48,580 nucleotides of DNA from a virus, in IMG/VR virus record IMGVR_UViG_3300036859_000170, positions 1 to 48,580 of that record; one strand, written 5' to 3'. The first letter of the stretch is position 1. Each line of letters starts with the position of its first letter. The translations under genes and the position numbers were made by a program. The notes beneath the pieces were generated by a model, which saw nothing but the letters and a program-made list of their open reading frames with translations, was not told the origin of the DNA and did no database searches. Positions 12,190 to 35,945 of the stretch are shown one piece after another.

Positions 12190-12716
12190 TGAAGACCAGT
12201 GACGCCGTGGTTGCAGTTGGTGCCTTGATCGGACTGCTTGCGTTGAGCTACATGGCTGGTTGTCTGCGTGAGCGTGAGAATCAGGCTGAAGCGATCAGGA
12301 GGGCTGTCGACGAGACTGCATCGCTCGCAGACTCGATCAGGTACACGAGGCATGTCATAGATTCGCTTCGCTCCGTCGAACGTGCTGACACCGTGCTACT
12401 CATGCGCTGGCGTGATCGGTGGCGCGTATCGGTAGACACGCTCGAACTCTCTGATACTATCGTAGTCCCTGGCCCTGTCGTCCGGGAGATCGTCTATGTC
12501 GCTGACTCGACCATCAGGGCTTGCACGACTGCACTGGCGACTTGCCAAGTGCGTGCGAGCGAGGCGGAGAAACTGGTTAGTTTATACACGAGTCGGGATA
12601 CGATCCAGCTTCAGCGAATCGGACAGCTTTCACGATCAGGCAGGATCAGACTCGGTGGTGGCACGCTTGTCGGCGCAGCCGTCGGAGTGCTCGCAACCCT
12701 TCTTATCCACAAATGA
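12189..12716 (+). CDS. Unimolecular spanin candidate
   Basis: 175 residues, immediately after the endolysin. The N-terminus has a lipoprotein-type signal: hydrophobic residues 7-24 ending YMAGC, a plausible lipobox with the Cys as lipid site. The periplasmic part is helical and charged (residues 30-85) with an extended Pro/Val segment (DTIVVPGPVVREIVYV). The last ~20 residues are one transmembrane helix (LVGAAVGVLATLLIHK). An outer-membrane lipoprotein end plus an inner-membrane C-terminal helix is the topology of the phage T1 u-spanin, which fuses the two membranes at lysis. This implies a Gram-negative host. The last four codons and the stop lie within a palindromic element. Confidence 0.65.
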   Translation: MKTSDAVVAVGALIGLLALSYMAGCLRERENQAEAIRRAVDETASLADSIRYTRHVIDSLRSVERADTVLLMRWRDRWRVSVDTLELSDTIVVPGPVVREIVYVADSTIRACTTALATCQVRASEAEKLVSLYTSRDTIQLQRIGQLSRSGRIRLGGGTLVGAAVGVLATLLIHK

Positions 12717-12721
12717 ATAAG
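12702..12721 (+). repeat. Dispersed 20-bp palindromic element, copy 2
   Basis: CTTATCCACAAATGAATAAG. Contains TTATCCACA, the strict DnaA-box consensus. It covers the end and the TGA stop (12714-12716) of the spanin gene, and the next start ATG follows at 12723. It is oriented with transcription. Confidence 0.85.
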
Positions 12722-12722
12722 T

Positions 12723-14327
12723 ATGGCTCGAGCCCTGACGAATCGTCCAGTTGAACTTGACCAGTACGAACCTGGTCCTGGAAACACGGTCGAGTCTGGG
12801 GCCCTGTTTACGCCTCCAAAGGGAGTCACGTATTCGCTAGCTCCGGAGCAGGTCCCACCTGAGTATTCCACAGACCAGTTCAACCTCCTGGCGCGTTACG
12901 GACGCTACGAATCGAAGACCCCAGTCAATGTACTAGGTGGTGCTGCGCCTAGTCAGATAGTCTACGCTTGTGAATTCTCCAAAGGTGACGGTACGCGCTA
13001 CCCAACGCGGTTCCTGACTAACAAGGTCCAAGTATACGACGGCTCAACCTGGAACGACGTTGCTGGAATCGTTCTCACTGGCTCAATTACCGATCGTATA
13101 GCGATTACCAGCTTCAACAACAAGCTGATCTTCTCTAACAACAAAGACGGCCTATTCGAGATCGACCCCTCAGTGCCGAGTGGATCACTGATCGCGGCTG
13201 GACCGTCGTGTAAGCAGCTCACTACCCTCGCAGGACGTGTAATCGCTTCTGGTGTACTAGGCTTCGTGAACCGAATTAAGTGGTCAGCTAAGAACGATCA
13301 CACAGTCTGGACCGGCACTGGCACTGGTTTCGAGGACATGCTATCGACTCCTGGCGGGGAGATTGATCAGCAGTTTGGAGTGTGGCCTGTCAGTGATGAC
13401 ACTGGTGTGATCCTTCGGGCGTCGAGCATCTGGGGCATCAATACGACTGGGAACGTTGACGTTCCGTTCACATTTTCGAGGCTCGTCCCTAAGATCGGTG
13501 GAACGAGTCGATTCGCTGTCGTGCCGATTCCTGGTGGAATCGTATTTCTCGGCAACGACAAGATTTATCGCTATATCCTTGGTCAACCCCCTGAAGACAT
13601 AGCTCCACAGATCAATGATCGAGTGATCGGTTCCATCCTCGATCGTGATGGCTGCTACATGGCGCTCGATACGAAGTTCAATGAGGTTGCACTGTTTACA
13701 CCTAGTGGTCTCACAAAGTCTGTAGTCTACATCGGAAGCTTGAGCACACTCGGGTGGATGCCTCTTCAGTACCAGTTCCCGATCTACTCACTTTCTACTG
13801 GTCGTCGAATTCAGTACGTCAACGTCGATGATCTCGTAGGTGACGTTGACGATCTCGAGGGTGACGTGGACGATCTCGGGGTGTCGATAGGTCGTCCTGG
13901 TTACATGTTCGCTATGGATGATCCTGGACGGCATGTCGTAGTCAACGATAACAGTCTCGGGAGCGATTCGCTGCAAGACATAACAGTCACTGGCTCCCGA
14001 TCTCAGCACGACATCCTCATTGCGTCTGGGCTCATCACGTCTCCGTCTAGACTTGACAAGATCGCTGTACTGTATGTACAGATAGCTTACAAGTCCTCCG
14101 TTGACGTGTCTGGAGTTGTTGAGTACTCACTCGACCAGGGTCAGACCTGGCAGATGTACTCTCAAGCGTTCCTTCCAGCGGCGATAACGGTCAATGTAGT
14201 GACGCTACGCTACTCCGCGTACGCCGATGAGATGATGCTACGCCTCAGGGCGCCTAGCTCTGCTACGTTCGAACTTTTTGGCGTTCATGTGTATAAGCAA
14301 GCTGGTCCACGTCGGGGGTTGTCGTGA
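12723..14327 (+). CDS. Tail hub / DNA-stabilisation protein, P22 gp10-like
   Basis: 534 residues with repeated blade-like blocks: ITSFNNKLIFSNNKDGLFEI, WSAKNDHTVWTGTG, SSIWGINTTG, PGGIVFLGNDKIYRY, then a C-terminal beta domain (VVEYSLDQGQTWQMYSQAFL). This is the propeller-like layout of the hub protein that plugs the portal channel in P22-type podoviruses. A three-unit heptapeptide repeat VDDLxGD lies at residues about 368-388. It follows the lysis cassette directly; no ribosome binding site other than the palindrome region is evident upstream. Confidence 0.7.
   Translation: MARALTNRPVELDQYEPGPGNTVESGALFTPPKGVTYSLAPEQVPPEYSTDQFNLLARYGRYESKTPVNVLGGAAPSQIVYACEFSKGDGTRYPTRFLTNKVQVYDGSTWNDVAGIVLTGSITDRIAITSFNNKLIFSNNKDGLFEIDPSVPSGSLIAAGPSCKQLTTLAGRVIASGVLGFVNRIKWSAKNDHTVWTGTGTGFEDMLSTPGGEIDQQFGVWPVSDDTGVILRASSIWGINTTGNVDVPFTFSRLVPKIGGTSRFAVVPIPGGIVFLGNDKIYRYILGQPPEDIAPQINDRVIGSILDRDGCYMALDTKFNEVALFTPSGLTKSVVYIGSLSTLGWMPLQYQFPIYSLSTGRRIQYVNVDDLVGDVDDLEGDVDDLGVSIGRPGYMFAMDDPGRHVVVNDNSLGSDSLQDITVTGSRSQHDILIASGLITSPSRLDKIAVLYVQIAYKSSVDVSGVVEYSLDQGQTWQMYSQAFLPAAITVNVVTLRYSAYADEMMLRLRAPSSATFELFGVHVYKQAGPRRGLS
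13824..13886 (+). repeat. Three 21-bp tandem repeats in the tail-hub gene
   Basis: Units begin at 13824, 13845 and 13866 and share GAyGATCTCG followed by GGGTGAC-like ends. They encode VDDLVGD, VDDLEGD and VDDLGVS, so the frame is kept. A likely replication-slippage expansion giving an acidic, calcium-loop-like insert. Confidence 0.85.
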
Positions 14328-14626
14328 AGATCGACCCAGCAATTGTCGACAACACCGTGACGCTCCGCCGCCTTGTACGTGCAATGCAGCGGGATGTCTC
14401 CCTCAACGAGAATCTATCGTGTGACATCGTAACTGTGGCTGATACTGGTACTGCTGATGTATCGTTCACAGTGACTCACGCTCTCGGTCGGATTCCACTA
14501 GCCTACTTCTGGAACATCTCCAAAAGTGGCTTCGTCTACGATTACCAGAGGTCCCTATGGACAACCACGCAGCTGACACTGAAGTGCTCAGCCGCGAATG
14601 CGTCACTGACACTGGTGATATTCTGA
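14324..14626 (+). CDS. Hypothetical tail-associated protein
   Basis: 100 residues, GTG start overlapping the hub gene stop. The first half is helical (VTLRRLVRAMQRDVSLNENL). The second half has strands typical of small phage virion domains (ADVSFTVTHALGRIPLAYFW, then LWTTTQLTLKCSAANASLTL). The GRIP-AYFW segment is common in receptor-proximal small proteins. Overlaps the next gene by about 70 bases in another frame. Confidence 0.65.
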   Translation: MKIDPAIVDNTVTLRRLVRAMQRDVSLNENLSCDIVTVADTGTADVSFTVTHALGRIPLAYFWNISKSGFVYDYQRSLWTTTQLTLKCSAANASLTLVIF

Positions 14627-15114
14627 AGCACGGTCAGTGGACAGTACGTGAGATGATACTGTCCCTGGAGAAGATTCGTTGGCTGTGGACTGAATGTAAT
14701 AAGTATCGGTCACTGTTTAGTGACTTCACTCGTGGACACGTTGATAATTTCGTAGCGTTGTTGATGAACGGCGGAACGTTCTGGATGGAAGTCGTGAACG
14801 AACAAGGGACGATCGTGGGGGTGATCTACCTCACTGACCTCCGTCAGATCATTGACTACGGAGTGCACATCATCTTCTTCGACTGCAAACTCTCAGAGAA
14901 GGTCCCGTTGTGTAAGGTCGTTGCGAAGTGGATCTTCGACGAATTCCCCTGTCATCGACTCACCGCGATTATTCCTGGGAAGTACTACACAACCCTCAGG
15001 TTCATTCGTAAGCTCGGATTCGTCGAGGAAGGGCGCAAACGTCAGTCTCAGTTGATGAGCTCACGTTGGGACGATGAAGTGATTTTCGGTCTCTTGAGAA
15101 GTGAGGTGGCCTGA
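14557..15114 (+). CDS. GNAT-family acetyltransferase-like protein
   Basis: 185 residues. ATG 14557 has an AGAGG site five bases upstream but overlaps the previous gene by 70 bases; ATG 14654 is a shorter alternative. The central and C-terminal parts follow the GNAT fold: a strand pair (FWMEVVNEQGTIVGVIYLTD), a helix (VAKWIFDEFPCHRLTAIIPG), then YYTTLRFIRKLGFVEEGRKR, where the N-x-x-x-x-x-x-x-x-GF pattern matches the acceptor end of GNAT proteins. It lies in the ejection-protein module, as similar genes do in other podoviruses. Substrate unknown; a role in virion or host protein modification is possible. Confidence 0.75.
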   Translation: MDNHAADTEVLSRECVTDTGDILKHGQWTVREMILSLEKIRWLWTECNKYRSLFSDFTRGHVDNFVALLMNGGTFWMEVVNEQGTIVGVIYLTDLRQIIDYGVHIIFFDCKLSEKVPLCKVVAKWIFDEFPCHRLTAIIPGKYYTTLRFIRKLGFVEEGRKRQSQLMSSRWDDEVIFGLLRSEVA

Positions 15115-16292
15115 TGGGCGGGAGCACGAAGGTTGTCGATACGACTCCGAAAGACATCACAGGGCTGCGAAGTATGATTACGCAGTACTTGATGGGCTCG
15201 CCTGGACAGGCTGCGGCGGGAGGAGGGCCACGAACGGGTGGGCCAATGAGTGCAACGCCAGGAGCACTTCCAGGTGGAGGTTTTGAGGACCAGTTCAGAC
15301 ATCTCCTCGGGATCGTTCCGACTGCTCCTGGAGGTCCGCAGCCAGGAGCAGCGAGCCCGCTCGACAGGATCAACGCGGGGGGTGTACCACTGCCAGGACG
15401 TGTCGAGCTCGGAGGTGCCCCAACTATCGGTCCGGGAGACATCTCTCGGATTGGTGGACTGCCACAAGCGACGACTGACTATCAGGGACTACTGGGTCCG
15501 AACGTTGGTCGTGGAGCAGTCCGTGATATCACTGCTCCTGGAATTGGTGGGGTTGGTACGCAGTCTGTCGATCAGCTCGGTGGAGTGAATAGTGCGTTCT
15601 TCAACAACATGGTAGCGCAACTCGCTCCGCTGTTCAACCAGCAACGTGCGCAGGCTATCGCGCAGGCGAAGGAAGGCGCGGGGAACCTGACTGGAAGTGG
15701 ATTTGGTAACATCCTAGGTGAGGCGGTGAATAGATCACTAGGTCAGCAGCAGGCTACGCTCGCTGACTATGCTTCGCGTGGTCTGGACACTGAGGTCAAT
15801 CGTCAGCTCGGTCTTGCTGGACTCAATACACAACGCGACCTCGAACAAGCCAGGCTGCAGTTTGGAGCTGGTCAGGGTAACCAACAGGCTGATCAGGCAT
15901 TCCTTCAGTATATGTTGAGCCGAGGCGCTACCGGCGCTGAACTCGGTCAGCGTGGAGAATTCGCTAATATCGACACTGCGCTGCGTGGCTCGTTGGCGAA
16001 TCAGCAGACTGATCTACAGCGGATGCTTGCTAATCAGGGTATACAGGGTCAGTACGGTCTGACTCAGGCCCAGCTCGACCAAGCCCGCAATATGGGAATC
16101 TTCGGCACGCAGTCTGACATCGCTAATCAGAACGCACAGCGGTTCTTCCAGCTGCTCCAGGCGATGGGTCTGGGTGGAGTCGGACCGGGGACGGTGACAC
16201 AGAGTGGTGGAATCGGCTCGATCCTTGGACCGATCGGAAGCATCCTCGGTACCGCGCTCGGTCCTGGCGGAGCCATCGCAAAACACATCTAG
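15114..16292 (+). CDS. Internal virion (ejection) protein 1
   Basis: 392 residues. The first ~140 are Gly/Pro-rich and disordered, the middle is a long Gln/Ala/Asn-rich helical region (RAQAIAQAKEGAGNLTG, LANQQTDLQRMLANQGIQ), and the last ~40 are Gly-rich and hydrophobic (GSILGPIGSILGTALGPGG), a possible membrane-active end. This is the composition of podovirus ejection proteins that leave the capsid with the DNA to form a conduit. It is the first of three consecutive genes of this kind. Confidence 0.75.
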   Translation: MGGSTKVVDTTPKDITGLRSMITQYLMGSPGQAAAGGGPRTGGPMSATPGALPGGGFEDQFRHLLGIVPTAPGGPQPGAASPLDRINAGGVPLPGRVELGGAPTIGPGDISRIGGLPQATTDYQGLLGPNVGRGAVRDITAPGIGGVGTQSVDQLGGVNSAFFNNMVAQLAPLFNQQRAQAIAQAKEGAGNLTGSGFGNILGEAVNRSLGQQQATLADYASRGLDTEVNRQLGLAGLNTQRDLEQARLQFGAGQGNQQADQAFLQYMLSRGATGAELGQRGEFANIDTALRGSLANQQTDLQRMLANQGIQGQYGLTQAQLDQARNMGIFGTQSDIANQNAQRFFQLLQAMGLGGVGPGTVTQSGGIGSILGPIGSILGTALGPGGAIAKHI

Positions 16293-16301
16293 GAAACTTC
16301 T

Positions 16302-17564
16302 ATGCCCTACGGTCGTGACATCGAAGTCCCGAGCATCTGGGACTACATTGCACAGGGTTTAGGTGCTGGCGTTGAAGGCTATCGAGGCGCTCAACGTCGT
16401 GGAGACGTACTCGATGCGCAGAAGCGTGAGGAAGACTTCCGGAAGTGGCAAGCCCTGATGCAGCTTCATCAACAGGGTACGCTTCCTGAAGATCAGAACA
16501 AGGCGCTGAGTGACCTGACCCAGAAGGTCACAGGGGCACCTATAGCGATAGGTCCGTCACCAGCGCAGGTTAAGGCGAAGCTCGCGTTGTCGCCTGCTCA
16601 GGGATTCGCCACACCGCAGGCTGTGTTGCCTGGAGGCACCCTGTTGCCTTCGATCAAAGTTCAGGGAACCGAAGGTGTCCCTGGACGACAGTTCAAGTTC
16701 GCTGGACTACAGACTCCAGAGGAAGAGAAGGCTACGACGCTCGAGCTCGGAGCTGAGAGTGCATTGAATCAAGCCAGGATTCGTGTTGCGTCTGGTCAGG
16801 GCCTACCTGAGGACTACGCAGCACTGAATGTTAAGTCCCCAGAGCAGATTCGTCTTGACCGTATCACACAGCTTCAACCAATCCTTGACAACGCAGCACA
16901 GCGGCACATTCTCGCTGCTGTGTCGAAGACTAAGGGTCGACTCGATCCTCGATCGTTGTCACAGACTGGCGACATTGCGTTCAACAACTTCATCGCTAGT
17001 GATAAGCAGGCTAAGAATCTTGCGTTGAATCCTGCTGAGATGGCTGATGTTCAGAATGCATTCCGTGCGAAGGCGACGGAGCTGTATCTCGATCAACACA
17101 AGCAAGATGTGATGGAGCAGTTAAGGCGTCTTGAGGTCTCGGCGAGGTTTAGTCAGTCGCGTGCTGGACAGACTGCTAGTACGTTGGGGAAGATGTTGGT
17201 GAGCTTCGATTCGGAGTTGAGGACCCTTGGAGTGACTGCTGCATTAATTCCACAGCTCAAAGATCGCTACGATAGCTTATTGACTGCCAAGGCCCAAGTA
17301 ATCAACGCTCTTGGTAATGTAGCGAGCGAAGACTTCGAGTCCAGTGGGCAGCGGACTATACAGCAACTGAGTCCTCTACTTAAGCCAGAACCACAAGCTG
17401 GTAATGTGCTAGCACCTAGTGGTGCTCCAGGGATGCAACCAGCTTCTGGTGCTGCTGTGGCTGGCAAGCGTCAACAGATTACCGCAGACCAGGCCGAATT
17501 CCTGAAGGCTAAGAACGGCTTCCAGTGGTGGGACGCTAACAAGAATCGCTATGAGGTCAAGTGA
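16302..17564 (+). CDS. Internal virion (ejection) protein 2
   Basis: 420 residues, highly helical and Gln/Ala/Lys-rich. The N-terminus (SIWDYIAQGLGAGVEGYRGA, then QRRGDVLDAQKREEDFRKWQ) is a common start of ejection proteins. No catalytic motif. The C-terminus KNGFQWWDANKNRYEVK is aromatic and basic. Placement between two other ejection-type genes makes an internal capsid location likely. Stop overlaps the next start (TGATG). Confidence 0.75.
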   Translation: MPYGRDIEVPSIWDYIAQGLGAGVEGYRGAQRRGDVLDAQKREEDFRKWQALMQLHQQGTLPEDQNKALSDLTQKVTGAPIAIGPSPAQVKAKLALSPAQGFATPQAVLPGGTLLPSIKVQGTEGVPGRQFKFAGLQTPEEEKATTLELGAESALNQARIRVASGQGLPEDYAALNVKSPEQIRLDRITQLQPILDNAAQRHILAAVSKTKGRLDPRSLSQTGDIAFNNFIASDKQAKNLALNPAEMADVQNAFRAKATELYLDQHKQDVMEQLRRLEVSARFSQSRAGQTASTLGKMLVSFDSELRTLGVTAALIPQLKDRYDSLLTAKAQVINALGNVASEDFESSGQRTIQQLSPLLKPEPQAGNVLAPSGAPGMQPASGAAVAGKRQQITADQAEFLKAKNGFQWWDANKNRYEVK

Positions 17565-22648: not shown

Positions 22649-22666
22649 AAGATGAACGTTGTCATA

Positions 22667-22686
22667 CTTATTCATTTGTGAATAAG
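22667..22686 (-). repeat. Dispersed 20-bp palindromic element, copy 3 (perfect arms)
   Basis: On the minus strand CTTATTCACAAATGAATAAG: 8-bp perfect arms around CAAA, with TTATTCACA as an embedded DnaA box. It encodes the end and stop of the minus-strand gene at 22668-22799 and lies in the 19-base gap between the converging late and early transcripts. Confidence 0.85.
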
Positions 22687-22799
22687 CGTCGAATCTTGTC
22701 GATGAGTATCTGCAGTCCACCCCAGAGAGTCCATAACGCTAGGCCGACGACGATGATGGCTACTCCCGTGAGTGCAACCGTGAGTGGTCCGATAGTCAT
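22668..22799 (-). CDS. 43-residue single-pass membrane protein
   Basis: MTIGPLTVALTGVAIIVVGL is followed by ALWTLWGGLQILIDKIRRLF and a short polar end. Residues about 5-30 make one transmembrane helix, followed by an amphipathic basic helix. The ATG overlaps the stop of the upstream gene (ATGA), which supports real translation. It is the last gene of the early arm. The final five codons and the stop are the palindromic element. Function unknown; possibly an inner-membrane modulator. Confidence 0.7.
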   Translation of the reverse strand: MTIGPLTVALTGVAIIVVGLALWTLWGGLQILIDKIRRLFTNE

Positions 22800-23017
22800 T
22801 GTACAATCCTCGCTGTTATCATCCTGAGATCGTCTGCTAGCTTCCGAAGACCGTTGGCTAGGATAGTGGCTCGATAGTGTTCAGGATTTCGTATGACCTG
22901 GTCGAGCAGACACAGAATACCTATCTCGGTTGGGCTGTACCCTTCTACTAGAAGTCTCTTGATCTCGGCGTTGATCTCGGTGACTTCGAGAAGGTCTACG
23001 AGGCTAGTTCGTGGCAT
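22796..23017 (-). CDS. Small hypothetical early protein
   Basis: 73 residues, helical and charged. Starts at ATG 23017, five bases after GGGAGG, and overlaps the end of the ATPase gene by 14 bases. The segment EGYSPTEIGILCLLDQVIRN has an HTH-like helix-turn-helix spacing but is not convincing. No family recognised. Confidence 0.65.
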   Translation of the reverse strand: MPRTSLVDLLEVTEINAEIKRLLVEGYSPTEIGILCLLDQVIRNPEHYRATILANGLRKLADDLRMITARIVQ

Positions 23018-26504: not shown

Positions 26505-26507
26505 TCT

Positions 26508-27761
26508 TCAATCTGCAGTATGTGCCTTAATCTTCTTGATAGCGACTGCACGTCGCTCTGGGTTGAGTTCACATCCCCACCAGCGGCGCTTGAGTGCTGC
26601 TGCCGCTGCGAGGCATGATCCACTGCCAGCAAAGAAGTCTGCCACAATCTGGCCTGGGATGGTGAGGCGGCGGATGAGCTCCTGGTAGAGTCCGACTGGG
26701 CGTTCAACGGTCAGCTCTCTTTCTTGAACCGAGACGGGTGTGACTCGGATGATATTAGGAAGGTTCTTCTGCACGAGGATTGGATTGCCCTTCACACAGT
26801 GAAGTGCAATATCATAGGCCTTCGTAAACCAGCGGTCTGGATACGTACAGAACGTTCTTCCATCGGAACGGTCCCAGACAATCGGCACTGGATCGACAAG
26901 GAATCCAGCGTCACGGAAAATTCCCTTACAGCGCTCGAACCAGTCGTGTCCCAAGAACCAGACGAGCCAGGAGTCTGGCTTGAGGACACGATGGAGTTCA
27001 GGCGCGATTGTAAGGATACGTTCGTACGAGGCTTTCGAATCTTCGTACGAGCTGAGTGCTGACGACGTGTCGCGTTTTTGGTCATCGTAGTCTATTCCAA
27101 ATGGAGGGTCAGTGATAATCGCGTGGAAGGACTCATCAGTAATGTTCTTGATCAGTTCCACGCTGTCTCCGAGCCACAAGCGATCCTCGATCTCAGCGAA
27201 CTCATCCTTCGCACTAGCGACTTCTGCAATACGATTGATCGACTTGACACGCTCACGAGCCCATCGTACAGCCTGTCGTATCGAGTCCGCACGCTGAAGC
27301 TCCGGAAATACTGGAAGAAGCTTCGTAATCATCACGGCTTCGCTTACGTCTCGCTGCGCAGTTTTCCCTCCAGCGAGCGCCGCAGTCATGCCTTGAGTCC
27401 AGTTTGGATCACGCTCCTGGCGAATCCTGTTCAGCTCCGTGAGTGCCTTTGCACGCTCCTGCCAGGTCATCTGCTCGCGTTGGATGTTCTCCTCGAGTTC
27501 GACTTCACGGGAGAACAGCTCGTCGAGCTGATGAGTCCTGACCGCTGCGATGGTGGTCCAGTTGAGAGCACGGGCTGCGGAGACACGACGGAAGCCGGCG
27601 ACGAGGCTGTACGTACCGTCCGCTCCTGCCTCGACTATGATCGGCTGGAGCTGCCCGAAGTATTCGAGGGACTCCCGTAGCCCGTCCATGTCACCAGTCG
27701 CCTCACGGAAGCGTTCACGCGAGACAACTATTGAAGAGAGTGGAATCGACTCGACGTTCAC
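26508..27761 (-). CDS. ParB-like domain fused to a DNA methyltransferase
   Basis: 417 residues, GTG start overlapping the upstream stop (GTGA). Residues 1-100 are a ParB/Srx-type domain: IPLSSIVVSRERFRE, AGFRRVSAARAL (55-66) and ENIQRE (91-96). Residues 190-417 form a beta-class N6-adenine/N4-cytosine methyltransferase: LWLGDSVELIKNI, catalytic DPPF (218-221), then the SAM-binding ADFFAGSGS (374-382). It probably methylates the phage DNA, for protection or to mark replication or packaging sites. No partner restriction enzyme lies nearby. The ParB part may give sequence targeting or bind CTP; that is inference. Confidence 0.88.
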   Translation of the reverse strand: MNVESIPLSSIVVSRERFREATGDMDGLRESLEYFGQLQPIIVEAGADGTYSLVAGFRRVSAARALNWTTIAAVRTHQLDELFSREVELEENIQREQMTWQERAKALTELNRIRQERDPNWTQGMTAALAGGKTAQRDVSEAVMITKLLPVFPELQRADSIRQAVRWARERVKSINRIAEVASAKDEFAEIEDRLWLGDSVELIKNITDESFHAIITDPPFGIDYDDQKRDTSSALSSYEDSKASYERILTIAPELHRVLKPDSWLVWFLGHDWFERCKGIFRDAGFLVDPVPIVWDRSDGRTFCTYPDRWFTKAYDIALHCVKGNPILVQKNLPNIIRVTPVSVQERELTVERPVGLYQELIRRLTIPGQIVADFFAGSGSCLAAAAALKRRWWGCELNPERRAVAIKKIKAHTAD

Positions 27762-28874: not shown

Positions 28875-29332
28875 GGTTCCTCCGGCAGGGCCCAAATCGC
28901 GGCACTGTGGCAGATAAGCCCGCCGCCACTATGGAATTGAGGATTGGCCGTTAAGGGCAGTCCATCCCTACATCGGGCGCAGGTTGCCTTCGCACACCGC
29001 TCCCGCTCACGGCTACGAATTACTCGCTCGCTCCACCCGGGCTCCAACCTCTTGTTGTTGTCAAGCGCTCGGCAGGCTGGGCACTCCTCACCGCTGGCTT
29101 CCTCGTTCCACCAGACCGGAGGGTGACCGTCCCTGCACATGTGCTGGAAGTTTTGCTCCAGTTCCCGCACCCGCTGCACGAGGGCGATGGCGTCTTGGCC
29201 TACGACCTGCAAGCGGTCAAGGGCGAGAGACGACTTCATCCACGGTGTAGCTTGCAAGAAATCATGAGCATCTTGCTCCATCTGCTCCAGCGTCCGCTGT
29301 GGCACTCGTGCGGGCTCGAAATCCTCAATCAT
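28871..29332 (-). CDS. Cys-rich hypothetical protein, GC-rich
   Basis: 153 residues. A helical first half (EQMEQDAHDFLQATPWMKSS, later DAIALVQRVRELEQNFQHM) is followed by C-x13/14-type cysteines (HMCRDGHPP, GEECPACRALD, CAKATCARCRDG, LICHSAA), likely zinc sites. G+C is high (39 of 60 in 28981-29040), as expected of a recent arrival travelling with the PEP-CTERM gene, with which it overlaps (ATGA). No family recognised. Confidence 0.65.
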   Translation of the reverse strand: MIEDFEPARVPQRTLEQMEQDAHDFLQATPWMKSSLALDRLQVVGQDAIALVQRVRELEQNFQHMCRDGHPPVWWNEEASGEECPACRALDNNKRLEPGWSERVIRSRERERCAKATCARCRDGLPLTANPQFHSGGGLICHSAAIWALPEEP

Positions 29333-29667
29333 TAGTGCCTCCTCTTCGCTTCCTGCGCTGCAATCGCTGCGAGCACTCGCGGATCGGCTTGTGCTTGCAT
29401 GATCTCGCCCTGCTTAGGCCACGGACCGACGAAGAGGCCAGCGATCTTAGTTGGGACGAATGCGAGCGCACATGGCGCGTTGTTGTCCGCCCTACCGACA
29501 ATGAAGACTGGCCGATCGGGTGAGGCTGTGGAGATTAGCTTTTCTACAAGCTTCACCACTTCCTCCATGGGCTTGTCGGTCTTCACGTCCCCGATCTGGC
29601 CATTGTCGAAGATGACACGGACTAGGGTATCGATGATGGGGACGATTGTGAGCTCGTCGTTAGACAT
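29332..29667 (-). CDS. Hypothetical early protein
   Basis: 111 residues, acidic/helical with an alpha/beta pattern (VRVIFDNGQIGDVKTDKPME, FIVGRADNNAPCALAFV). Begins 11 bases downstream of a palindromic element that ends the previous gene. Its stop overlaps the next start (TAATG). Function unknown. Confidence 0.65.
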   Translation of the reverse strand: MSNDELTIVPIIDTLVRVIFDNGQIGDVKTDKPMEEVVKLVEKLISTASPDRPVFIVGRADNNAPCALAFVPTKIAGLFVGPWPKQGEIMQAQADPRVLAAIAAQEAKRRH

Positions 29668-29677
29668 GTGGGGGCTC

Positions 29678-29697
29678 CTTATACATTTGTGGATAAG
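29678..29697 (-). repeat. Dispersed 20-bp palindromic element, copy 4
   Basis: On the minus strand CTTATCCACAAATGTATAAG, one base different from the consensus right arm. It includes TTATCCACA (DnaA box). It encodes the last codons (LSTNV) and the TAA stop of the SLOG-like gene, and lies 11 bases before the next start. Confidence 0.85.
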
Positions 29698-30128
29698 TCG
29701 ATGTGTGACACAATCAGAATCTTCACAGGCTTCCCTAACGCTCGTGCAAACTTGACAGTCCAGCAGCCTCCAGACTTAACGTGGTCGGCTGTCTTACAGT
29801 GGTAGCACGACTCGAAGCGCATTCCAGTATACCCTGGAGGTAGTTCTCTGACTGTAATACAAACTACCGTGTCGCTATCGTAAGCGATTAGCTGATTTCT
29901 CTGCTTGTAGCCACCGTTCCAAGTCCTGGCCTTGGGAAGGTGCTCGATGTACTGGAGACCGAGAAGCTTCGCCTCCTCTACTGTCCAGATGTCAATGCCT
30001 CCAAGGTGACAACCTCCGGAGATCACTATGTCTCCAGGCCTGAGGAGTCCTCGTATTATCTTACGAGCGGCTTCTTCAGTCTGTGGAGTAAACTTAGCTG
30101 CTTCTGCCCCAACGATTCCGATTCTCAT
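29679..30128 (-). CDS. SLOG / Rossmann-type nucleotide-binding-like protein
   Basis: 149 residues. Starts MRIGIVGAEAAKFTP, followed by RPGDIVISGGCHLGGIDIWT and VEEAKLLG. The GxxGxxxx lead, a DIVISGG strand-loop and a helix are typical of SLOG-superfamily proteins (DprA/LOG/YspA-like) that bind nucleotides or ligands. Four Cys/His (CYHCKTADH, GGCW) may bind metal. Its start has no visible Shine-Dalgarno sequence and follows directly on a tRNA-like element, which may influence expression. SLOG proteins occur in nucleotide-signalling immunity systems, but nothing else of such a system is seen here. Confidence 0.65.
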   Translation of the reverse strand: MRIGIVGAEAAKFTPQTEEAARKIIRGLLRPGDIVISGGCHLGGIDIWTVEEAKLLGLQYIEHLPKARTWNGGYKQRNQLIAYDSDTVVCITVRELPPGYTGMRFESCYHCKTADHVKSGGCWTVKFARALGKPVKILIVSHIDLSTNV

Positions 30129-30130
30129 AA

Positions 30131-30204
30131 AAGTGTCGGAGAGGATTTGAACCTCACTTGGGAATAACCCTTCCGACCGGCCGTCGCGTCGCGGCCCGAC
30201 ACTC
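30131..30204 (-). tRNA. tRNA-like element (degenerate or unusual tRNA)
   Basis: On the minus strand a 7-bp acceptor stem GTGTCGG/CCGACAC encloses about 70 nt. The 3' part has a T arm with GAGG-TTCAAAT-CCTC, matching the B box GTTCRAnYC, and a strong GGCCG/CGGCC stem sits at the D-arm position. The anticodon arm is not canonical: GGAA/TTCC closes only a six-base loop, so no anticodon can be called. It is followed by four T's and sits between two early genes. It could be a decaying tRNA or a tRNA mimic. Confidence 0.45.
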
Positions 30205-30209
30205 TTCTC

Positions 30210-30593
30210 CTACGCCTTCAAGAACCGTTGGACCCTGTCCACGATACGGTTCTCGTAGGGCTCGTTCTCGATCGTGACCTGGAGCCGTTGACCGACGAGC
30301 TGGTCCGTATCGAACGGAACGTCGTCTCCAGCACGCATCCGATCAGCGATGTCGTCGAAGCGACACGCTCGTAGGAGCTCGTCGAACCTGAACGCTCCCT
30401 TGCCGGTGATGAGTAGGAACGCATCCCTGCTGACGACTTCCCCGTCGACCTCGACTCCGAACGTCGGAACGATCATTGGGTTGTCGCTCTTTGAGGTCTT
30501 GGTCTCGCACTTCGTGATCGACGCTTTGTACGTTCCAGGCTTGATTGGCTGGAACTCCTTCACGTCCTTAAGGTTCGGATAGATCGTGGGCAC
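30210..30593 (-). CDS. ssDNA-binding / DUF669-like recombination partner
   Basis: 127 residues, GTG start. The compact beta-rich sequence (PIKPGTYKASITKCETKTSK, VEVDGEVVSRDAFLLITGKG, LVGQRLQVTIENEPYENRIV) resembles OB-fold or DUF669-type proteins that accompany phage Sak4/ERF recombinases. It directly follows the Sak4-like gene. Likely coats single-stranded DNA in replication and recombination. Confidence 0.65.
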   Translation of the reverse strand: MPTIYPNLKDVKEFQPIKPGTYKASITKCETKTSKSDNPMIVPTFGVEVDGEVVSRDAFLLITGKGAFRFDELLRACRFDDIADRMRAGDDVPFDTDQLVGQRLQVTIENEPYENRIVDRVQRFLKA

Positions 30594-30595
30594 GA

Positions 30596-31432
30596 CTAGG
30601 CTCCCTTCGCTGTGGTGAGACTACGGATCTGCTCGTCGACTGACTTGAACTCCCTGTCCAGCGCAGGCCAGGACCACTCCGTCCCGTTGGGAATCCCTGA
30701 CCGGCTCCCTGCGAGGTCGATGCCCGTTGCTTGGGTGACAAGCTTTCGCGTTAGCCCCGAGCCACTCGGGACAGCAACGAGGCGATAGACCTCATCGAAC
30801 ATGAGGGGGACGCGTTCCGCGGATTGACCAGTGAGGAGTGGTACCCTTTGGATGACGGACCCTTTGTCGTCGGAGACCTCCTTTTCGTGACACAACACTA
30901 CAATATGCTTGTCGGTGTCGAGAAGCATCCGTATGAATTGCTCGACCATGCTCCGCTCTGCGCCATAGTCCTGGATGCGCGGAATCAGAAGTCCGGACTT
31001 CACGGCCTGACTGTGAGTGAACGAGAGCGGCTTCGGCCCGAAGGCTGTACTTCCGAGGAGAATCACTCCCTTGTTCATCGCGGCTTCGGAGAGTGTAGTG
31101 CCGGTGTCGAGTACCCATGTGTCGAACTGCGTGCGCTTCCCTGTGGTCATCCAGTCGTCAAACCACTTACATGCTGCATCGAAGGCATTGTGAGTCGTGA
31201 CGACTCCCCCAGGTCCGCGGGCGCCTTCGTGAAATTGGCCGACAGGATACTCTGGGTGCCAACCGTACAGATCAACGAATGCTTTCGACCTCAGGGTTAG
31301 CGTCCCCTTATCGAAGTCGATGAAGTTTGGCCGCGGCCACGAGCCAGCGCCGAACGTCTTGCCAACCTTCGACTTGCCGTAGACCAGAACGCGGCGATGT
31401 GGATTGAGCTTGATGCCGCCGAGGGTGGTCAT
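30596..31432 (-). CDS. Sak4-like RecA-fold ATPase (single-strand annealing)
   Basis: 278 residues. Walker A is YGKSKVGKTF (18-27), preceded by the HRRVLVYG strand. Walker B-like TWVLDTGTT lies at 105-113. DKHIVVLCHEKEVSD (a sensor-type strand followed by H) and the overall length are typical of phage Sak4/'AAA_24' ATPases, which anneal single strands together with an SSB-like protein. The next gene downstream is such a candidate partner. Overlaps its upstream neighbour by ATGA. Confidence 0.82.
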   Translation of the reverse strand: MTTLGGIKLNPHRRVLVYGKSKVGKTFGAGSWPRPNFIDFDKGTLTLRSKAFVDLYGWHPEYPVGQFHEGARGPGGVVTTHNAFDAACKWFDDWMTTGKRTQFDTWVLDTGTTLSEAAMNKGVILLGSTAFGPKPLSFTHSQAVKSGLLIPRIQDYGAERSMVEQFIRMLLDTDKHIVVLCHEKEVSDDKGSVIQRVPLLTGQSAERVPLMFDEVYRLVAVPSGSGLTRKLVTQATGIDLAGSRSGIPNGTEWSWPALDREFKSVDEQIRSLTTAKGA

Positions 31433-31638
31433 TGTGGCGTGGCTTCTGGTGCTACTTCTTCGAAGTACTCGGATTCGGCCTCGGAAACCTCGCTGTCCGA
31501 CCAGAAACGGTCGTTGATGTCATCGTGTTCCTCTGCAATCTTCACTGCTGCCTCGTACGCGAGCTCCTCGTTGTCTGCCTCGACTTCTACCTCCGAGACT
31601 TGGACAACGGTTCTGGTGAGTCCTACCTTCCATTTCAT
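31429..31638 (-). CDS. Small very acidic early protein
   Basis: 69 residues. After VGLTRTVVQVSEVEVEADNE it becomes Glu/Asp-rich (AEEHDDINDRFWSDSEVSEA). Its strong negative charge and small size resemble DNA-mimic inhibitors, but no family is recognised, so this is only a resemblance. Coupled to both neighbours by overlaps (ATGA). Confidence 0.65.
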   Translation of the reverse strand: MKWKVGLTRTVVQVSEVEVEADNEELAYEAAVKIAEEHDDINDRFWSDSEVSEAESEYFEEVAPEATPQ

Positions 31639-32015
31639 TGTGGAGACTCTCCTTTCAGTACTTGTTCGACTACGTCCTGGAATCCTCCGTAGTCGTACCG
31701 CGTGAGCTGTTGTGGATCACGAAGTTCGATGAAGTACCTAGCCTTATCTAGTTCTTGTGCCACGTCGAGCATCCAACGAAGACGAGTCGAGATCAGGGCA
31801 TTACGTACACGACGGAACTGGACGAGTGTCTCTTCGCTCCCTAAGTCACTGTGCGCACTGCTAACGGAAGTGACCAGTGCTTCGTCGTGGTCATCTGCAT
31901 CGAGCGCACCACGCTCCACGAGGTCGCGTACGTCTTCAGCGATCAGCTCCGCGTCGACTTTGGACGGAGCTTTGAAGACTATACGGAGCGTGGCGATGAA
32001 GGTTTGGTCAGCCAC
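31635..32015 (-). CDS. Hypothetical early protein
   Basis: 126 residues: an N-terminal alpha/beta block (TFIATLRIVFKAPSKVDAEL) similar in style to its downstream neighbour, followed by helices. No motif identified. The start overlaps the upstream gene by 8 bases. Confidence 0.65.
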   Translation of the reverse strand: MADQTFIATLRIVFKAPSKVDAELIAEDVRDLVERGALDADDHDEALVTSVSSAHSDLGSEETLVQFRRVRNALISTRLRWMLDVAQELDKARYFIELRDPQQLTRYDYGGFQDVVEQVLKGESPQ

Positions 32016-32631
32016 GAGTTAGTCCACTGTAGTTCCTCATCGTCGCTTGAGTGCGTACAATATCGTCGTACGCACGTGCCAACTGACTCAACGTCTGTCT
32101 ACTTTCTTGCAACTCCTTGAGACTGTCCGTAGATCCGAGTTCCAGAAACCTGTGGAGCTTGTCTACCGGAATCCAATAGCGATCTCCTGGGGCATTGGCG
32201 TCGAGCAATAAAAGTTCTTCGCAGATATACCCTGGTTTCATTTTAACCTCCTGTTCTGCTCCGTGATAGTTGACCTGACGCAGCAGGGCCATGACTTCTT
32301 CTGGGCGCGACTCGTCGAGTACATCTTCGATGAACTTACGAAGATCGCCTTTCGACATCAACGTACTGAGTCCATCAAAGGTGTAATAGACGTTCCTGAT
32401 CTGAACTCGAGTCCGTAGACCAAGCTTCTTCATGAGAATACGCTCTGGGAATCCAGTCTGGAGATTACACTCCCCCTGATATGCTCGTGCGAAGAAACAT
32501 TCCCCCCAACTCGACGCTCCATCCTCGAACGCGGTGAGTCCCTTCTCAATCCTCTCCGGTCCCATCCGCTGAAGAACCTCTCGAATCGACTGTCTGATTC
32601 CGTGGTAGAATATGTCTCTGATGTCTGGCAT
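32008..32631 (-). CDS. Hypothetical early protein
   Basis: 207 residues, mostly helical with acidic stretches (LRKFIEDVLDESRPEEVMAL). The central block KMKPGYICEELLLLDANAPG then DRYWIPVDKLHRF may be a small beta domain. The start ATG lies inside the 3' end of the gene before, giving an 86-base overlap. Function unknown. Confidence 0.65.
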   Translation of the reverse strand: MPDIRDIFYHGIRQSIREVLQRMGPERIEKGLTAFEDGASSWGECFFARAYQGECNLQTGFPERILMKKLGLRTRVQIRNVYYTFDGLSTLMSKGDLRKFIEDVLDESRPEEVMALLRQVNYHGAEQEVKMKPGYICEELLLLDANAPGDRYWIPVDKLHRFLELGSTDSLKELQESRQTLSQLARAYDDIVRTQATMRNYSGLTRG

Positions 32632-32836
32632 GACGGCGACCTTCCTTCCTGACGAATCGTGAGTGTTCCTGCCTCGTTGCGAGCTCGAAGTCGATGAGTG
32701 TGTGGGTCAGCGACTCGACACATGTGAAGAAGTCCGCAGGAGACGTGGATCCTCTAGGGAAGACGTTCTCCCGGAGCCAGTCTTCAGCCATCCGTCTACA
32801 GCGTTCCCGACGGACCCTAGGAGCATCTCTTGTCAT
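32546..32836 (-). CDS. Hypothetical basic/helical early protein
   Basis: 96 residues, ATG overlapping the upstream stop (ATGA). The first ~65 residues (RRMAEDWLRENVFPRGSTSP, ADFFTCVESLTHTLIDFELA) look like a real helical domain. The last ~28 residues are read from the same DNA as the start of the next gene in another frame, so they are probably not under independent constraint. Confidence 0.55.
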   Translation of the reverse strand: MTRDAPRVRRERCRRMAEDWLRENVFPRGSTSPADFFTCVESLTHTLIDFELATRQEHSRFVRKEGRRHARHQRHILPRNQTVDSRGSSADGTGED

Positions 32837-33030
32837 TTCTGACTCCGTGCCTCTTGCTCGCGCTTGGTCCATTCGGCTTCGAGACGTTGCCTTTCCATGA
32901 GCGCTGACTCGCCGTGTAGATCGCAGTAACAGCCCAGTTCCTCGTTTCGGTTGCCTATGAGTTGCTGGATCGCGAGCCGCTTGCATGCTGCTGCCACGCA
33001 GCGCCGCTGGATATCGCGAAAGTAGGCCAT
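32833..33030 (-). CDS. Small Cys/His helical early protein
   Basis: 65 residues: FRDIQRRCVAAACKRLAIQQ, LGCYCDLHGES, then a Glu/Arg-rich helix. C-x4-C and CYCDLH could form a zinc site. No family recognised. Follows the nuclease gene with only a few bases between. Confidence 0.6.
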   Translation of the reverse strand: MAYFRDIQRRCVAAACKRLAIQQLIGNRNEELGCYCDLHGESALMERQRLEAEWTKREQEARSQK

Positions 33031-33034
33031 TAGT

Positions 33035-33928
33035 TCATTCTCCCTTCCCTGTGACTTCGACGGTATCTCTACGTTCGTGATCCCATGGGTGCTTCACGTA
33101 GTTCTGATCGAGCATCCGCTCACGATCATTCGGATGCATGGAGCAAACGCCATGATACTCACACAGTCCGTACATCGTACAGGACTGTGTCCGCATAGGC
33201 CAGTAGCCGTTGCGTTCATGGAACTTGATCTCATCACAGACGGATTTGACGTTGCGCTTCCACTCGTCAATCTCTGCAGGGGCCCGTGATGTGATGTGGC
33301 GCTCGAACCGCGTAGCACTAGCCTTGTAGATTCCGATAGCGTTGATGAGCGCGCCGCCGACCTGACGACCAGTGAGTTGTTGGAGTCCCCAGATGTAGCC
33401 AGTGATCTGGTTGTTGGGTTTGAACTGGTGAAAGTAGTACGAGCTCAACTGGGAAGTTGTCTTGTGTTCGAGGGTATACACTAGGTCGTTGAACTGGATG
33501 CCCCCGTCGAGAATCATTCCGTACTCGATGGGCTCCCCATCGTCACAGGTCAGTCCGAGGTCGATGGTAGCGACACGCTCGATCAGCGCTGATCCGTTAC
33601 CGCCTCCGAGGAACTCGAATGACTCGTCTGGATAGTGTTTAGCATAGTCCCTCATGACTCCGAGACACTTATCCAGCGTTCGATGGTCGTCAACGTGACC
33701 GTGATCCTCCCACTTCGCAGCCATCGCCTCCATCGAAGCGAGGAGTGACGCCTCCCAGTTGTCTCCTGTAGATCGTCGCCGGTACCATTCAGCGAGTCCA
33801 TAGTGAACGTTCGCTCCTGCAGACAACGCTGGACTCTTCCCGCGGCCAGTCCACGCCTCGACGATTCGCCTGCGGTACTTCGTCGGGCAGGTCTGGTGAG
33901 TGACGAGAGTGAAGTTGTCGATGATCAT
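33035..33928 (-). CDS. PD-(D/E)XK nuclease of the RecB/Cas4 type
   Basis: 297 residues starting at ATG 33928 (ATGA overlap with the upstream stop). Active-site pattern: GMILDGGIQF, then LEHKTT with the E-x-K pair. Iron-sulphur-type Cys ligands: C14 in HQTCPTKYRRR near the N-terminus and C250, C256 and C262 (SCTMYGLCEYHGVC) near the C-terminus, as in Cas4/AddB/RecB-like nucleases. No cas1 or CRISPR array is present, so it is most likely a phage recombination/end-processing exonuclease working with the Sak4-like annealing protein. Confidence 0.85.
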   Translation of the reverse strand: MIIDNFTLVTHQTCPTKYRRRIVEAWTGRGKSPALSAGANVHYGLAEWYRRRSTGDNWEASLLASMEAMAAKWEDHGHVDDHRTLDKCLGVMRDYAKHYPDESFEFLGGGNGSALIERVATIDLGLTCDDGEPIEYGMILDGGIQFNDLVYTLEHKTTSQLSSYYFHQFKPNNQITGYIWGLQQLTGRQVGGALINAIGIYKASATRFERHITSRAPAEIDEWKRNVKSVCDEIKFHERNGYWPMRTQSCTMYGLCEYHGVCSMHPNDRERMLDQNYVKHPWDHERRDTVEVTGKGE

Positions 33929-34206
33929 GAGGATGGGCCAGTCTGTTGAGGGACAAGAACTCGATAGTTCTGCCACATCTGGACTGCCTTATCCATGGCT
34001 TGGACCGCGGCGAGCTCGGTGACTTGTATGGAGTAGATGAGAACCTGACGGCGGACACTCGTCTGAGTAGGTCCGGCTGGCGTCTCGTCTGCGTGAGGCT
34101 TGTTTCGCTCGCGCTTCAGCGCGTGGAGCGCCTCAAACAAGTCATGCGCTTCCCGAAGTGCCTGCTCTGCTATGTTCCGGTAAGCTTCCGGGTGAGTCTC
34201 TGACAT
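33925..34206 (-). CDS. Hypothetical helical early protein
   Basis: 93 residues: IAEQALREAHDLFEALHALK, then LIYSIQVTELAAVQAMDKAV. Two long amphipathic helices that could dimerise. Directly upstream of and overlapping the nuclease gene, so perhaps an accessory factor. Function unknown. Confidence 0.65.
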   Translation of the reverse strand: MSETHPEAYRNIAEQALREAHDLFEALHALKRERNKPHADETPAGPTQTSVRRQVLIYSIQVTELAAVQAMDKAVQMWQNYRVLVPQQTGPSS

Positions 34207-34228
34207 GTCATGTTCCGATGTGGTGTGG

Positions 34229-34432
34229 TCACTTCTCGACTACCTTCAGGACGGCCCACTTAGCGGCGTTGTACTTCGCGCTTGTGCCAACGACATTCCC
34301 AGCCAGGATTTGTCTACCGAGTTCCTGTCGGAATGGTTTCATCTTCGTCTGGTACGCTAGGCGCTGCTGATTCGTCAACGTGCGATAGCGTTCGAGGAAG
34401 TCTTCGTCGGTCACCCACTGTCGTTCAGTCAT
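34229..34432 (-). CDS. Small basic early protein
   Basis: 67 residues, start at ATG 34432 overlapping the previous stop by 8 bases. Helical and basic: DEDFLERYRTLTNQQRLAYQ, TKMKPFRQELGRQILAGNVV. A DNA-associated role is possible from charge only. Confidence 0.6.
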   Translation of the reverse strand: MTERQWVTDEDFLERYRTLTNQQRLAYQTKMKPFRQELGRQILAGNVVGTSAKYNAAKWAVLKVVEK

Positions 34433-34598
34433 ACTGGTCTCTCTCAAGGATGTACTCTCTGATCTTTCTAGAGAATAGTAAAAGGTCGCGCTTCTTGTTG
34501 CTAGAGAGGGACTCAAACTGGACTCCTACTATCTCATCCGCTATGAGCTTAGCGATGAGATTCTCTTCCTGTTGATTTACGACGATCACTCTCTTCAC
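34425..34598 (-). CDS. Small hypothetical early protein
   Basis: 57 residues, GTG start at 34598 behind AGGAGGGA. Begins VKRVIVVNQQEENLIAKLIA and ends with a basic helix (NKKRDLLLFSRKIREYILER). Its ribosome site can pair with the CCTCC-rich 3' part of the structured region just upstream, so its translation may be regulated by that RNA. Confidence 0.6.
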   Translation of the reverse strand: MKRVIVVNQQEENLIAKLIADEIVGVQFESLSSNKKRDLLLFSRKIREYILERDQYD

Positions 34599-34615
34599 CG
34601 TGCGTCCCTCCTGTT

Positions 34616-34812
34616 TGTCTGCTATGGAGGAGGGAGGAATCGAACCTCCCATAGACCAGCCTGAAGGAGCGACCTTCAGGATCAATCCCCCAAAGGTGGC
34701 GACGCTGACACCGAAGATCGGCTGCCGACGCTGCAGGCGTCCAGGAACGCATCTCGTGTCTCACCACGTCGCCACGGTAGGGCCCCGGCTCGGATGAGGT
34801 CATGTCAACCTC
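34616..34812 (-). ncRNA. Structured non-coding region with tRNA T-arm-like hairpin
   Basis: No gene fits here. On the minus strand there are three strong structures: an 80-nt element bounded by GTGGCGACG/CGTCGCCAC (34696-34775), an 8-bp hairpin CCTGAAGG/CCTTCAGG with a 5-nt loop (34660-34680), and a T-arm-like hairpin GGGAGG-TTCGATT-CCTCCC (34632-34650). The last matches the tRNA B box, but no matching acceptor 5' strand or D arm was found. It may be an unusual structured RNA, a defective tRNA or a leader controlling the next gene. Confidence 0.5.
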
Positions 34813-34818
34813 GGCACA

Positions 34819-34847
34819 AGTATCGTATCCCTCATTCCCTGTGCCAA
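34819..34847 (-). promoter_or_regulatory. Candidate promoter before the structured RNA
   Basis: On the minus strand TTGGCA (34847-34842), 17 bases, GATACT (34824-34819). It matches the -35 at 5 of 6 and the -10 at 4 of 6 positions. It is flanked by GGCACA/TGTGCC inverted arms that could be an operator. Weaker than the other promoters. Confidence 0.4.
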
Positions 34848-34863
34848 CGCCGGGATGGATACG

Positions 34864-35298
34864 TTAGTCGACTGACGGTAGCGTCACGCGACCTTCCGCG
34901 AGCGCCTTGAGGAACGCCGCGAGCTCGTCACCGTCCGCACCCGCCTCTACAGCCTTCGCGGCCATGCCGCGAGCACGACTCACTGGAGTCGACACGCCGA
35001 CAGCCTTCGCTCCAGGCCGGAACTTGATCTGCGCCTCCGCGATCTCGTCGTCGGACTTACCGGCGATGCGCATCCGGCGAGCGATGCCCTGAAATGACAC
35101 GATCAAAGACGTTCCGTTCACGACGTTCAGGACTCCCTGGTCGCCGTAGAACTCTCGTGCCTTATCCAGGTCGTCCCACTCCAACAGCGGCACATCACCT
35201 AGTGACTGCGTCCCGCGGGCGGTCTTGACTTCGTCGTAGTTGAAGTGTGCACCGTCCGGAGCACGAACTGTGAGACCTTCACTGATTCCTGCGGTCAT
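34864..35298 (-). CDS. Early protein, paralogue of the one at 39743
   Basis: 144 residues with a GGAG site before ATG 35298. The region LDKAREFYGDQGVLNVVNGT, then SLIVSFQGIARRMRIAGKSD and DDEIAEAQI, aligns with the 160-residue protein at 39743-40225 (DLAREAFGDSAIMFGVNNTS, EGVVREMIVKNRKVTNAELE). Both are therefore likely distant duplicates. The C-terminus is Ala/Gly-rich and helical. No known motif; possibly an abundant early DNA- or RNA-associated protein. Confidence 0.7.
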   Translation of the reverse strand: MTAGISEGLTVRAPDGAHFNYDEVKTARGTQSLGDVPLLEWDDLDKAREFYGDQGVLNVVNGTSLIVSFQGIARRMRIAGKSDDEIAEAQIKFRPGAKAVGVSTPVSRARGMAAKAVEAGADGDELAAFLKALAEGRVTLPSVD

Positions 35299-35379
35299 GA
35301 TGATACTCCTTGGAGGTTGAGGAACGGGCCGATGGCCCCAAGGAAGGGGAGTGGATGTCCCCTGCCAGTGATGAGACTG

Positions 35380-35679
35380 TCATGGCCACTGTAATCCTGA
35401 GATTCGTTCAACTACACTACCGTCTTCTCTGATAGTCAGTCGACCGGAGGCTATGCCTCGTAGGAACTTAGTAAAAGCATCCTCGTCGACGTAATCATGA
35501 GGAGAGAATGGCTGGGAATAAGCAAAGGCGTGTTGAGCTTGCTTCTCGAGATACCGCCGTTCGTTCTCAGTCCAAGGCTTAAGATATGACTTCTGTTTGA
35601 ACCATGATCCGAACCGTGGAACGAATATCGAGATGGTGCCGACTGCGACTGACGAGAGGAAAAGCCTACGATCTGGCAT
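35380..35679 (-). CDS. Small protein with Tat-like signal sequence
   Basis: 99 residues. The N-terminus MPDRRLFLSSVAVGTISIFV carries RRLFL, which resembles the twin-arginine (RRxFL) export motif, followed by a hydrophobic stretch. The rest is charged, with FSPHDYVDEDAFTKFLRGIA resembling a small helical domain. The first gene after a strong promoter (35719-35747). If exported, it would be an early phage product acting outside the cytoplasm. Confidence 0.6.
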   Translation of the reverse strand: MPDRRLFLSSVAVGTISIFVPRFGSWFKQKSYLKPWTENERRYLEKQAQHAFAYSQPFSPHDYVDEDAFTKFLRGIASGRLTIREDGSVVERISGLQWP

Positions 35680-35718
35680 GTTGTGTCCCCTTCCGATCCG
35701 ATTCCGAAAACCTGATGC

Positions 35719-35747
35719 AATATAACACTACTCACGTCCCTTGTCAA
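35719..35747 (-). promoter_or_regulatory. Early sigma-70 promoter P4
   Basis: On the minus strand TTGACA (35747-35742), 17 bases ending in TGT, then TATATT (35724-35719): a perfect -35, a 5-of-6 -10 and an extended -10. It lies over the stop of the gene at 35728 and starts RNA about 33 bases before the Tat-like gene. Confidence 0.8.
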
Positions 35748-35934
35748 TGGGAATTGACAGGGTTTGTGCTGTCCTCGCGCAGAGTTGACACTCCAACTTG
35801 AACCTATATGGATACGACCGTTCGATCCAGTCGGAGGTCACCCTGCGCCCGCAGAATGTGAGTGGCTCCGTAGGGGACTTGAAGTGAATCAGTCCTGGTC
35901 CACGTGGAGCCTCGACTAGAATGAAGTTATTCAT
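35728..35934 (-). CDS. Small Cys-containing early protein
   Basis: 68 residues beginning MNNFILVEAPRGPGLIHF. Cys residues in LTFCGRRV and LECQLCART suggest a zinc-binding knuckle of the kind common in small phage proteins. The start ATG is the ATG inside palindromic element copy 5, and it overlaps the preceding gene's stop by 8 bases. Confidence 0.65.
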   Translation of the reverse strand: MNNFILVEAPRGPGLIHFKSPTEPLTFCGRRVTSDWIERSYPYRFKLECQLCARTAQTLSIPIDKGRE

Positions 35935-35945
35935 TTGTGGATAAG
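35926..35945 (-). repeat. Dispersed 20-bp palindromic element, copy 5
   Basis: On the minus strand CTTATCCACAAATGAATAAC, with the DnaA box TTATCCACA. It contains both the TAA stop of the 57-residue gene upstream (its last codons read LSTNE) and the ATG start of the next gene. Confidence 0.85.

Follow-up and report, generated by a model that had tools for sequence, protein, structure and literature searches.

A repeated palindrome in a complete-looking phage genome

The IMG/VR virus record IMGVR_UViG_3300036859_000170, from an uncultured phage and analyzed here over its whole length of 48,580 bp (hereafter, the window), carries a 127-bp direct terminal repeat, looks complete, and encodes an SU10-type portal and adaptor, TerL, a PolI-type polymerase, a primase/ATPase, Sak4, SSB, and a ParB-like methyltransferase. 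Dispersed along it are seven occurrences of the palindrome TATYCACAAATGNATA (20-bp form CTTATTCACAAATGAATAAG; Table 1), which, as argued below, probably belongs to a series of regularly spaced docking sites for a protein rather than acting as a signal in mRNA. The seven copies are not due to chance: a scan with the 20-mer, allowing up to three mismatches, returns six matches, compared with 0.00 in shuffled sequence, and the 16-bp core has seven exact matches. All seven are co-oriented with the transcription of the local genes, and copy 3 sits between the tail-to-tail stops of the late (plus strand, 22648) and early (minus strand) operons. Copy 6, in which TGC stands in place of TGA, lies within a low-scoring open reading frame (ORF) whose two cysteine-rich, zinc-ribbon-like halves meet exactly at the copy; this ORF (38085-38648, minus strand) may be two genes fused through loss of the element's stop.

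Table 1. Copies of the palindrome in the window, and the gene of the protein proposed to read it
Feature	Position	Strand	Sequence	Description
Copy 1	409..428	+	GGTATTCACAAATGGATACC	Symmetric outer-base change CT..AG to GG..CC; holds ATG of gene 420-725
Copy 2	12702..12721	+	CTTATCCACAAATGAATAAG	Stop of gene 12189-12716 (LLIHK-stop); directly 5' of the ATG of virion gene 12723-14327
Copy 3	22667..22686	-	CTTATTCACAAATGAATAAG	Perfect; stop of gene 22668-22799 (LFTNE-stop)
Copy 4	29678..29697	-	CTTATCCACAAATGTATAAG	Stop of gene 29679-30128 (LSTNV-stop)
Copy 5	35926..35945	-	CTTATCCACAAATGAATAAC	Stop of ORF 35927-36100 (LSTNE-stop); ATG opens MNNFILVEAP...
Copy 6	38281..38300	-	CTTATTCACAAATGCATACC	Right arm degenerate; read through as LIHKC in ORF 38085-38648
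Copy 7	40481..40500	+	CTTATTCACAAATGAATAAG	Perfect; divergent early/late region upstream of terS
Candidate reader	26508..27761	-		417 residues: ParB-CTPase (~1-100), ParB/Noc-type helix-turn-helix (HTH; ~120-155), beta-class DNA methyltransferase (~195-417)

Different palindromes at the same places in related genomes

Searches based on the polymerase recovered relatives of the window at 83 IMG/VR loci, together with several in GenBank (a search with TerL alone returned a near-identical fragment only, and megablast against phages gave no match). A dispersed palindrome of its own, differing in sequence from genome to genome, is present in 19 of the 24 related genomes, window included, a tally that pools several scans of unequal sensitivity over genomes that, being related, are not independent. 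As a set, the window's palindrome occurs in none of the relatives, which carry, for example, TGATTCA-N4-TGAATCA (G002, 11 sites), TTATCAnAATTTTGATAA (G003, 9 sites), TTGTCC-N6-GGACAA (G005, 6 sites), TTGTTCAAAATTTGAACAA (G007, 12 sites), TGATTCATTTTTTGAATCA (G008, 14 sites), TGTTCGAAATTTGAACA (G010, 20 sites), TGTCCCAAATTGGGACA (L016, 9 sites), and TGTTTCATTAAATGAAACA (L033, 6 sites). The families of G004, G015, and L011 were added through an intergenic-only scan, those of G004 and G015 being degenerate and missed by whole-genome word scans; in G014, G016, L012, L014, and L017 these scans gave no clear element set. An exact-pattern scan of IMG/VR brought up one further genome (L008), an unrelated AT-rich phage with a single chance copy, which was set aside.

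The elements are perfect or near-perfect palindromes of two half-sites, the half-sites commonly ending in TTCA or TCCA and the centre measuring 1-3 nucleotides in several relatives, and they have neither a common core nor a fixed orientation (orientation is lost in, e.g., G009 and L033). In three of the sets (G007, G008, and G010), the core dyad is also flanked, 4-7 bp to its left and right, by CT[AC] or the complementary [TG]AG; this trinucleotide has a fixed inverted orientation in G008, and both orientations occur in the other two. As a separate observation, L017 (BK063670, vir526), a methanogen-associated virus in which the ParB-methyltransferase was not found, carries a non-palindromic repeat, ACCCCCCCGTCAGAC, in ∼19 places and both orientations.

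Placement was counted over 147 sites in 16 genomes; genes were called by a simple in-house codon-score script, and the counts are approximate. As many as 123 sites lie outside called genes, compared with 19.8 expected from random positions, and at 79 a stop codon is found no more than 15 bp away, compared with 9.1 expected. The positions are conserved while the sequence at them changes. A site lies 3' of the primase gene in 10 of the 16 genomes, and at the early/late tail-to-tail junction in several, the region in which copy 3 of the window falls; another lies 5' of terS in the window as well as in G002, G003, G005, G007, and L016. At the junction of copy 1, differing palindromes are found in G003 (39487) and G005 (9680), and at that of copy 2, the orthologous gene in G005 begins at a site of that genome's own.

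The sites are also regularly spaced. Compared with the same number of random gene junctions, the distances between sites have a smaller maximum and a smaller coefficient of variation (pooled p ∼ 1e-12), as they do compared with uniform positions (pooled p ∼ 1e-9 and 1e-10), although the pooling of related genomes means that these values overstate independence. Spacing is very even in G006, though its sites are mostly inside genes, and likewise in G009 and L016, whose sets are unrelated in sequence.

A candidate reader and its proposed action

The best candidate for a protein that reads the palindromes appears to be the ParB-CTPase/HTH-methyltransferase of Table 1, on the grounds that the two co-occur, that half-sites are parS-like, and that two matches were obtained out of sample. 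Its gene adjoins that of the polymerase, and the 83 loci contain 71 full-length proteins, among whose invariant residues are five from the nucleotide boxes (G56, R59, E88, N92, and R95). In profile comparison, the sequence matches Noc (7ng0, residues 5-191), Spo0J, ParB, KorB, and DpnA/CcrM-type methylases, and Foldseek agrees, returning ParB/Noc-type folds together with M1.HpyAVI/CcrM; the AlphaFold2 model has a predicted local distance difference test score of 91. The ParB part is present in 19 of 19 element-bearing genomes versus two of five element-free ones (Fisher p = 0.005); G014, which has no clear element, has the methylase half only. A search among 124 early proteins turned up no shared HTH regulator.

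Some of the half-sites approach that of canonical parS, TGTTTCAC, as seen in TGTTTCA, TATTTCA, and TTGTTCA; the likeness is close in L033, G006, G007, G010, and G011 and weaker in G003, G012, L016, and G005. Outside the lineage, the cultured Vibrio phage VS-ABTNL-3 (MF497422), chosen solely for its ParB-methyltransferase, has four exact copies of CAATCG-N6-CGATTG, one of them at a tail-to-tail junction, and the cyanophage Yong-DA (Aphanizomenon phage; ON073792), which has a stand-alone ParB, has five spread copies of GTTCAGACNTCTGAAC / TGTTCAGACNTCTGAAC, one of them inside parB. In seven methylase-only controls no convincing set was found, the scans of two being dominated by GC-rich coding words. 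The fecal phage MT835532 (L142; integrase and ParAB) has ∼16 copies of GTGCGACA-N3-TGTCGCAC between 4560 and 33829, whose GC-rich stem is ambiguous; it was not counted as support.

We favour a pairing of this putative reader with the palindromes and hold with moderate confidence that the element is one of a genome-wide, evenly spaced set of palindromic sites for the phage's own ParB-type protein, each dyad acting as a parS-like loading site. Gene junctions, the sole positions left free in so dense a phage genome, would house the sites. A dimer would use its HTH to dock on the palindrome, clamp shut on nucleotide, and then leave the site to slide or spread over several kilobases; in this way a few sites could keep every part of the phage DNA no more than ∼5-6 kb from a loading point. 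The attached methyltransferase might thereby modify the DNA of the phage and not that of the host, e.g., as protection from restriction, and transcription may likewise be affected by the protein, whether bound or sliding. The complete self-marking scheme, in which parS-like sites tile the genome, a nucleotide-gated ParB-type clamp carries the fused methyltransferase in cis so that the phage but not the host is methylated, and the specificity of site and clamp diverges fast, we put forward more tentatively. To our knowledge, neither a DNA target nor a function has been established for phage ParB-methyltransferase fusions, which are common. The dispersed palindromes described here are candidate DNA sites for them; such sites would explain the regular spacing and the gene-junction placement in the lineage and would make it a testable case of a sliding clamp that delivers a DNA-modifying enzyme in cis.

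Several observations weigh against this interpretation. G016 and L014 carry the protein without a clear element, and the divergence of the HTH does not follow that of the half-sites (Mantel rho -0.07, p = 0.72). The C-terminal dimerization domain of ParB is replaced by the methyltransferase, and the half-sites are 3-6 bp apart, wider than in canonical parS (2). Among six ParB-like phages outside the lineage, Yong-DA alone is clearly positive: phiAH14a, Meyran, ctl617, and Maja were negative, and the scan of DirtyBoi was dominated by GC-rich coding words. One methylase-only control, Mushu, has three unexplained dyads. The window taken by itself is only marginally even in spacing (p ∼ 0.05-0.08), and the relatedness of the genomes noted above bears on both the pooled spacing values and the tally of element-bearing genomes.

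Noc sites are dispersed on chromosomes. What the present system has in common with parS and with ParB, Noc, and KorB is a palindromic site together with a ParB-type CTPase-HTH protein, here the candidate reader; it differs in that a methyltransferase, not a dimerization domain, stands at the end of the protein, in its spacer, and in that the sites tile, at even intervals, a phage genome in which no integrase was found (tyrosine type searched). KorB, a ParB relative, loads at operators, slides, and silences at a distance (PMC11790492), and the title of a work cited there gives it 12 binding sites on RK2. The same domain fusion as in the candidate reader appears in a 2025 PNAS survey, which describes ParB-CTPase/N6_N4-methyltransferase fusions as enriched in phages and suggests an anti-defence role; in the survey passages searched, they are not assigned any DNA sites (PMC12704722).

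Operators, promoters, and the stop and start codons

A somewhat unlikely alternative is that the dyads are operators or stoperators, at which the initiation or elongation of transcription is blocked by a repressor or silencer of phage or host origin (perhaps the ParB-type protein itself, perhaps another), as happens in Cluster A actinophages or with KorB on RK2. Cluster A stoperators are an example of dispersed sites that may run into the ends of genes and that differ from one phage to another (PMC13313380, PMC9283540), and the present sites share this dispersal and intergenic or terminus-overlapping position, as well as a consensus that varies among related phages (∼20 sites in Cluster A/CA). 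Sites upstream of terS and between operons, and the co-orientation of all seven window copies with transcription, also fit such a role. However, the stoperators of the temperate Cluster A/CA phages are asymmetric sequences of 13-14 bp that follow the direction of transcription and are recognized by an HTH repressor acting as a monomer (PMC9283540, PMC13313380), whereas the elements here are dyads whose orientation is not kept in relatives such as G009 and L033. Nor was a matching repressor or integrase found: HTH_3 (PF01381) gave nothing above cut-off in element-bearing genomes, and the tyrosine integrase (PF00589) is found in 0 of 20 genomes, the serine type not having been searched for. A stoperator role would predict neither the even spacing nor the tail-to-tail sites.

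It is improbable that the copies are phage-specific promoters read by a sigma-like factor of the phage's own. The phiEco32 gp36 promoter has the consensus tAATGTAtA, which the AATGNATA core recalls; the window copies run with transcription, copy 7 precedes terS, and an early HTH protein (38808-39344, minus strand; Sigma70_r4/TerS-like HTH) matches Sigma70_r4 weakly. But copy 3, as a promoter, would drive antisense transcription of the late operon, and the Sigma70_r4-like ORF is not shared with the relatives, whose elements lack a common core or fixed orientation; as an explanation for the whole lineage, promoters were rejected.

The earlier note on this sequence had drawn attention to the overlap of the palindrome with stop and start codons and had suggested that a hairpin placed over such junctions could control re-initiation or protect mRNA ends. 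The overlaps themselves largely stand. Re-translation bears out that copies 2-5 encode the gene ends listed in Table 1. The use of the ATG of copy 1 (at 420, opening MDTSRSSRLA...) as a gene start is plausible because the orthologues in G003 and G005 begin 6-7 nucleotides past their own, different palindromes; a start at the ATG of copy 5 is likewise plausible, although the gene caller did not choose it. By contrast, the ATG of copy 7 (40492), taken to open the frame that runs into terS, belongs to frame 40465-40797, and TerS homologues match the frame 40532-41095 only. The claim that unrelated genes share their last residues through a constraint on nucleic acid rather than on protein function is upheld, relatives bearing different palindromes at the same junctions. 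One frame of the element reads L-F/S-T-N-x-stop, the next L-I-H-K-stop, and the third holds the ATG; because TGA or TAA is thus present in two of the three forward frames, with an ATG in the third, the shared residues follow automatically. Shared C-terminal residues in unrelated genes can, in other words, be by-products of DNA sites, and on the interpretation favoured here the overlaps would result from squeezing an element with built-in TGA, TAA, and ATG into tiny gaps.

An RNA hairpin acting at these junctions in re-initiation, processing, or mRNA end stability is very improbable, even though the element is palindromic and touches stops in four copies. RNA folding places the element hairpin in copies 1-3 and 7, and copies 1 and 2 alone markedly beat their shuffles (z -4.3 and -2.8), but no stable element hairpin forms in copies 4-6 (-2 to -3 kcal/mol, near shuffles), copy 4 having a weak hairpin no better than shuffles and copies 5 and 6 none. 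A genome-by-genome test for pairing of variable arm positions beyond that given by independent columns showed a marginal excess in the window only (p = 0.044), with all other families at or below expectation; arm positions are either fixed or independently variable. The lack of arm covariation, the unstable RNA folds, and the 1-3-nucleotide centres of several relatives are as predicted if a dimeric protein recognizes the half-sites independently. Placement points the same way, gaps being preferred rather than overlap with stops or starts (a stop codon is wholly within the site in 19 of 147 cases and a start in 3), tail-to-tail sites allowing no re-initiation, and a role at mRNA junctions leaving the regular spacing along the genome unexplained.

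That the copies are host DnaA boxes is scarcely credible, and was rejected for the lineage as a whole: TTATYCACA is found in six of the seven copies, and TTATNCACA occurs seven times in the genome, six of them within elements (0.9 expected), but conservation spans 16-18 bp and the relatives' elements contain no DnaA box. Finally, the first early gene of the window (39743-40279, minus strand) is kept in G002 and G005 only.

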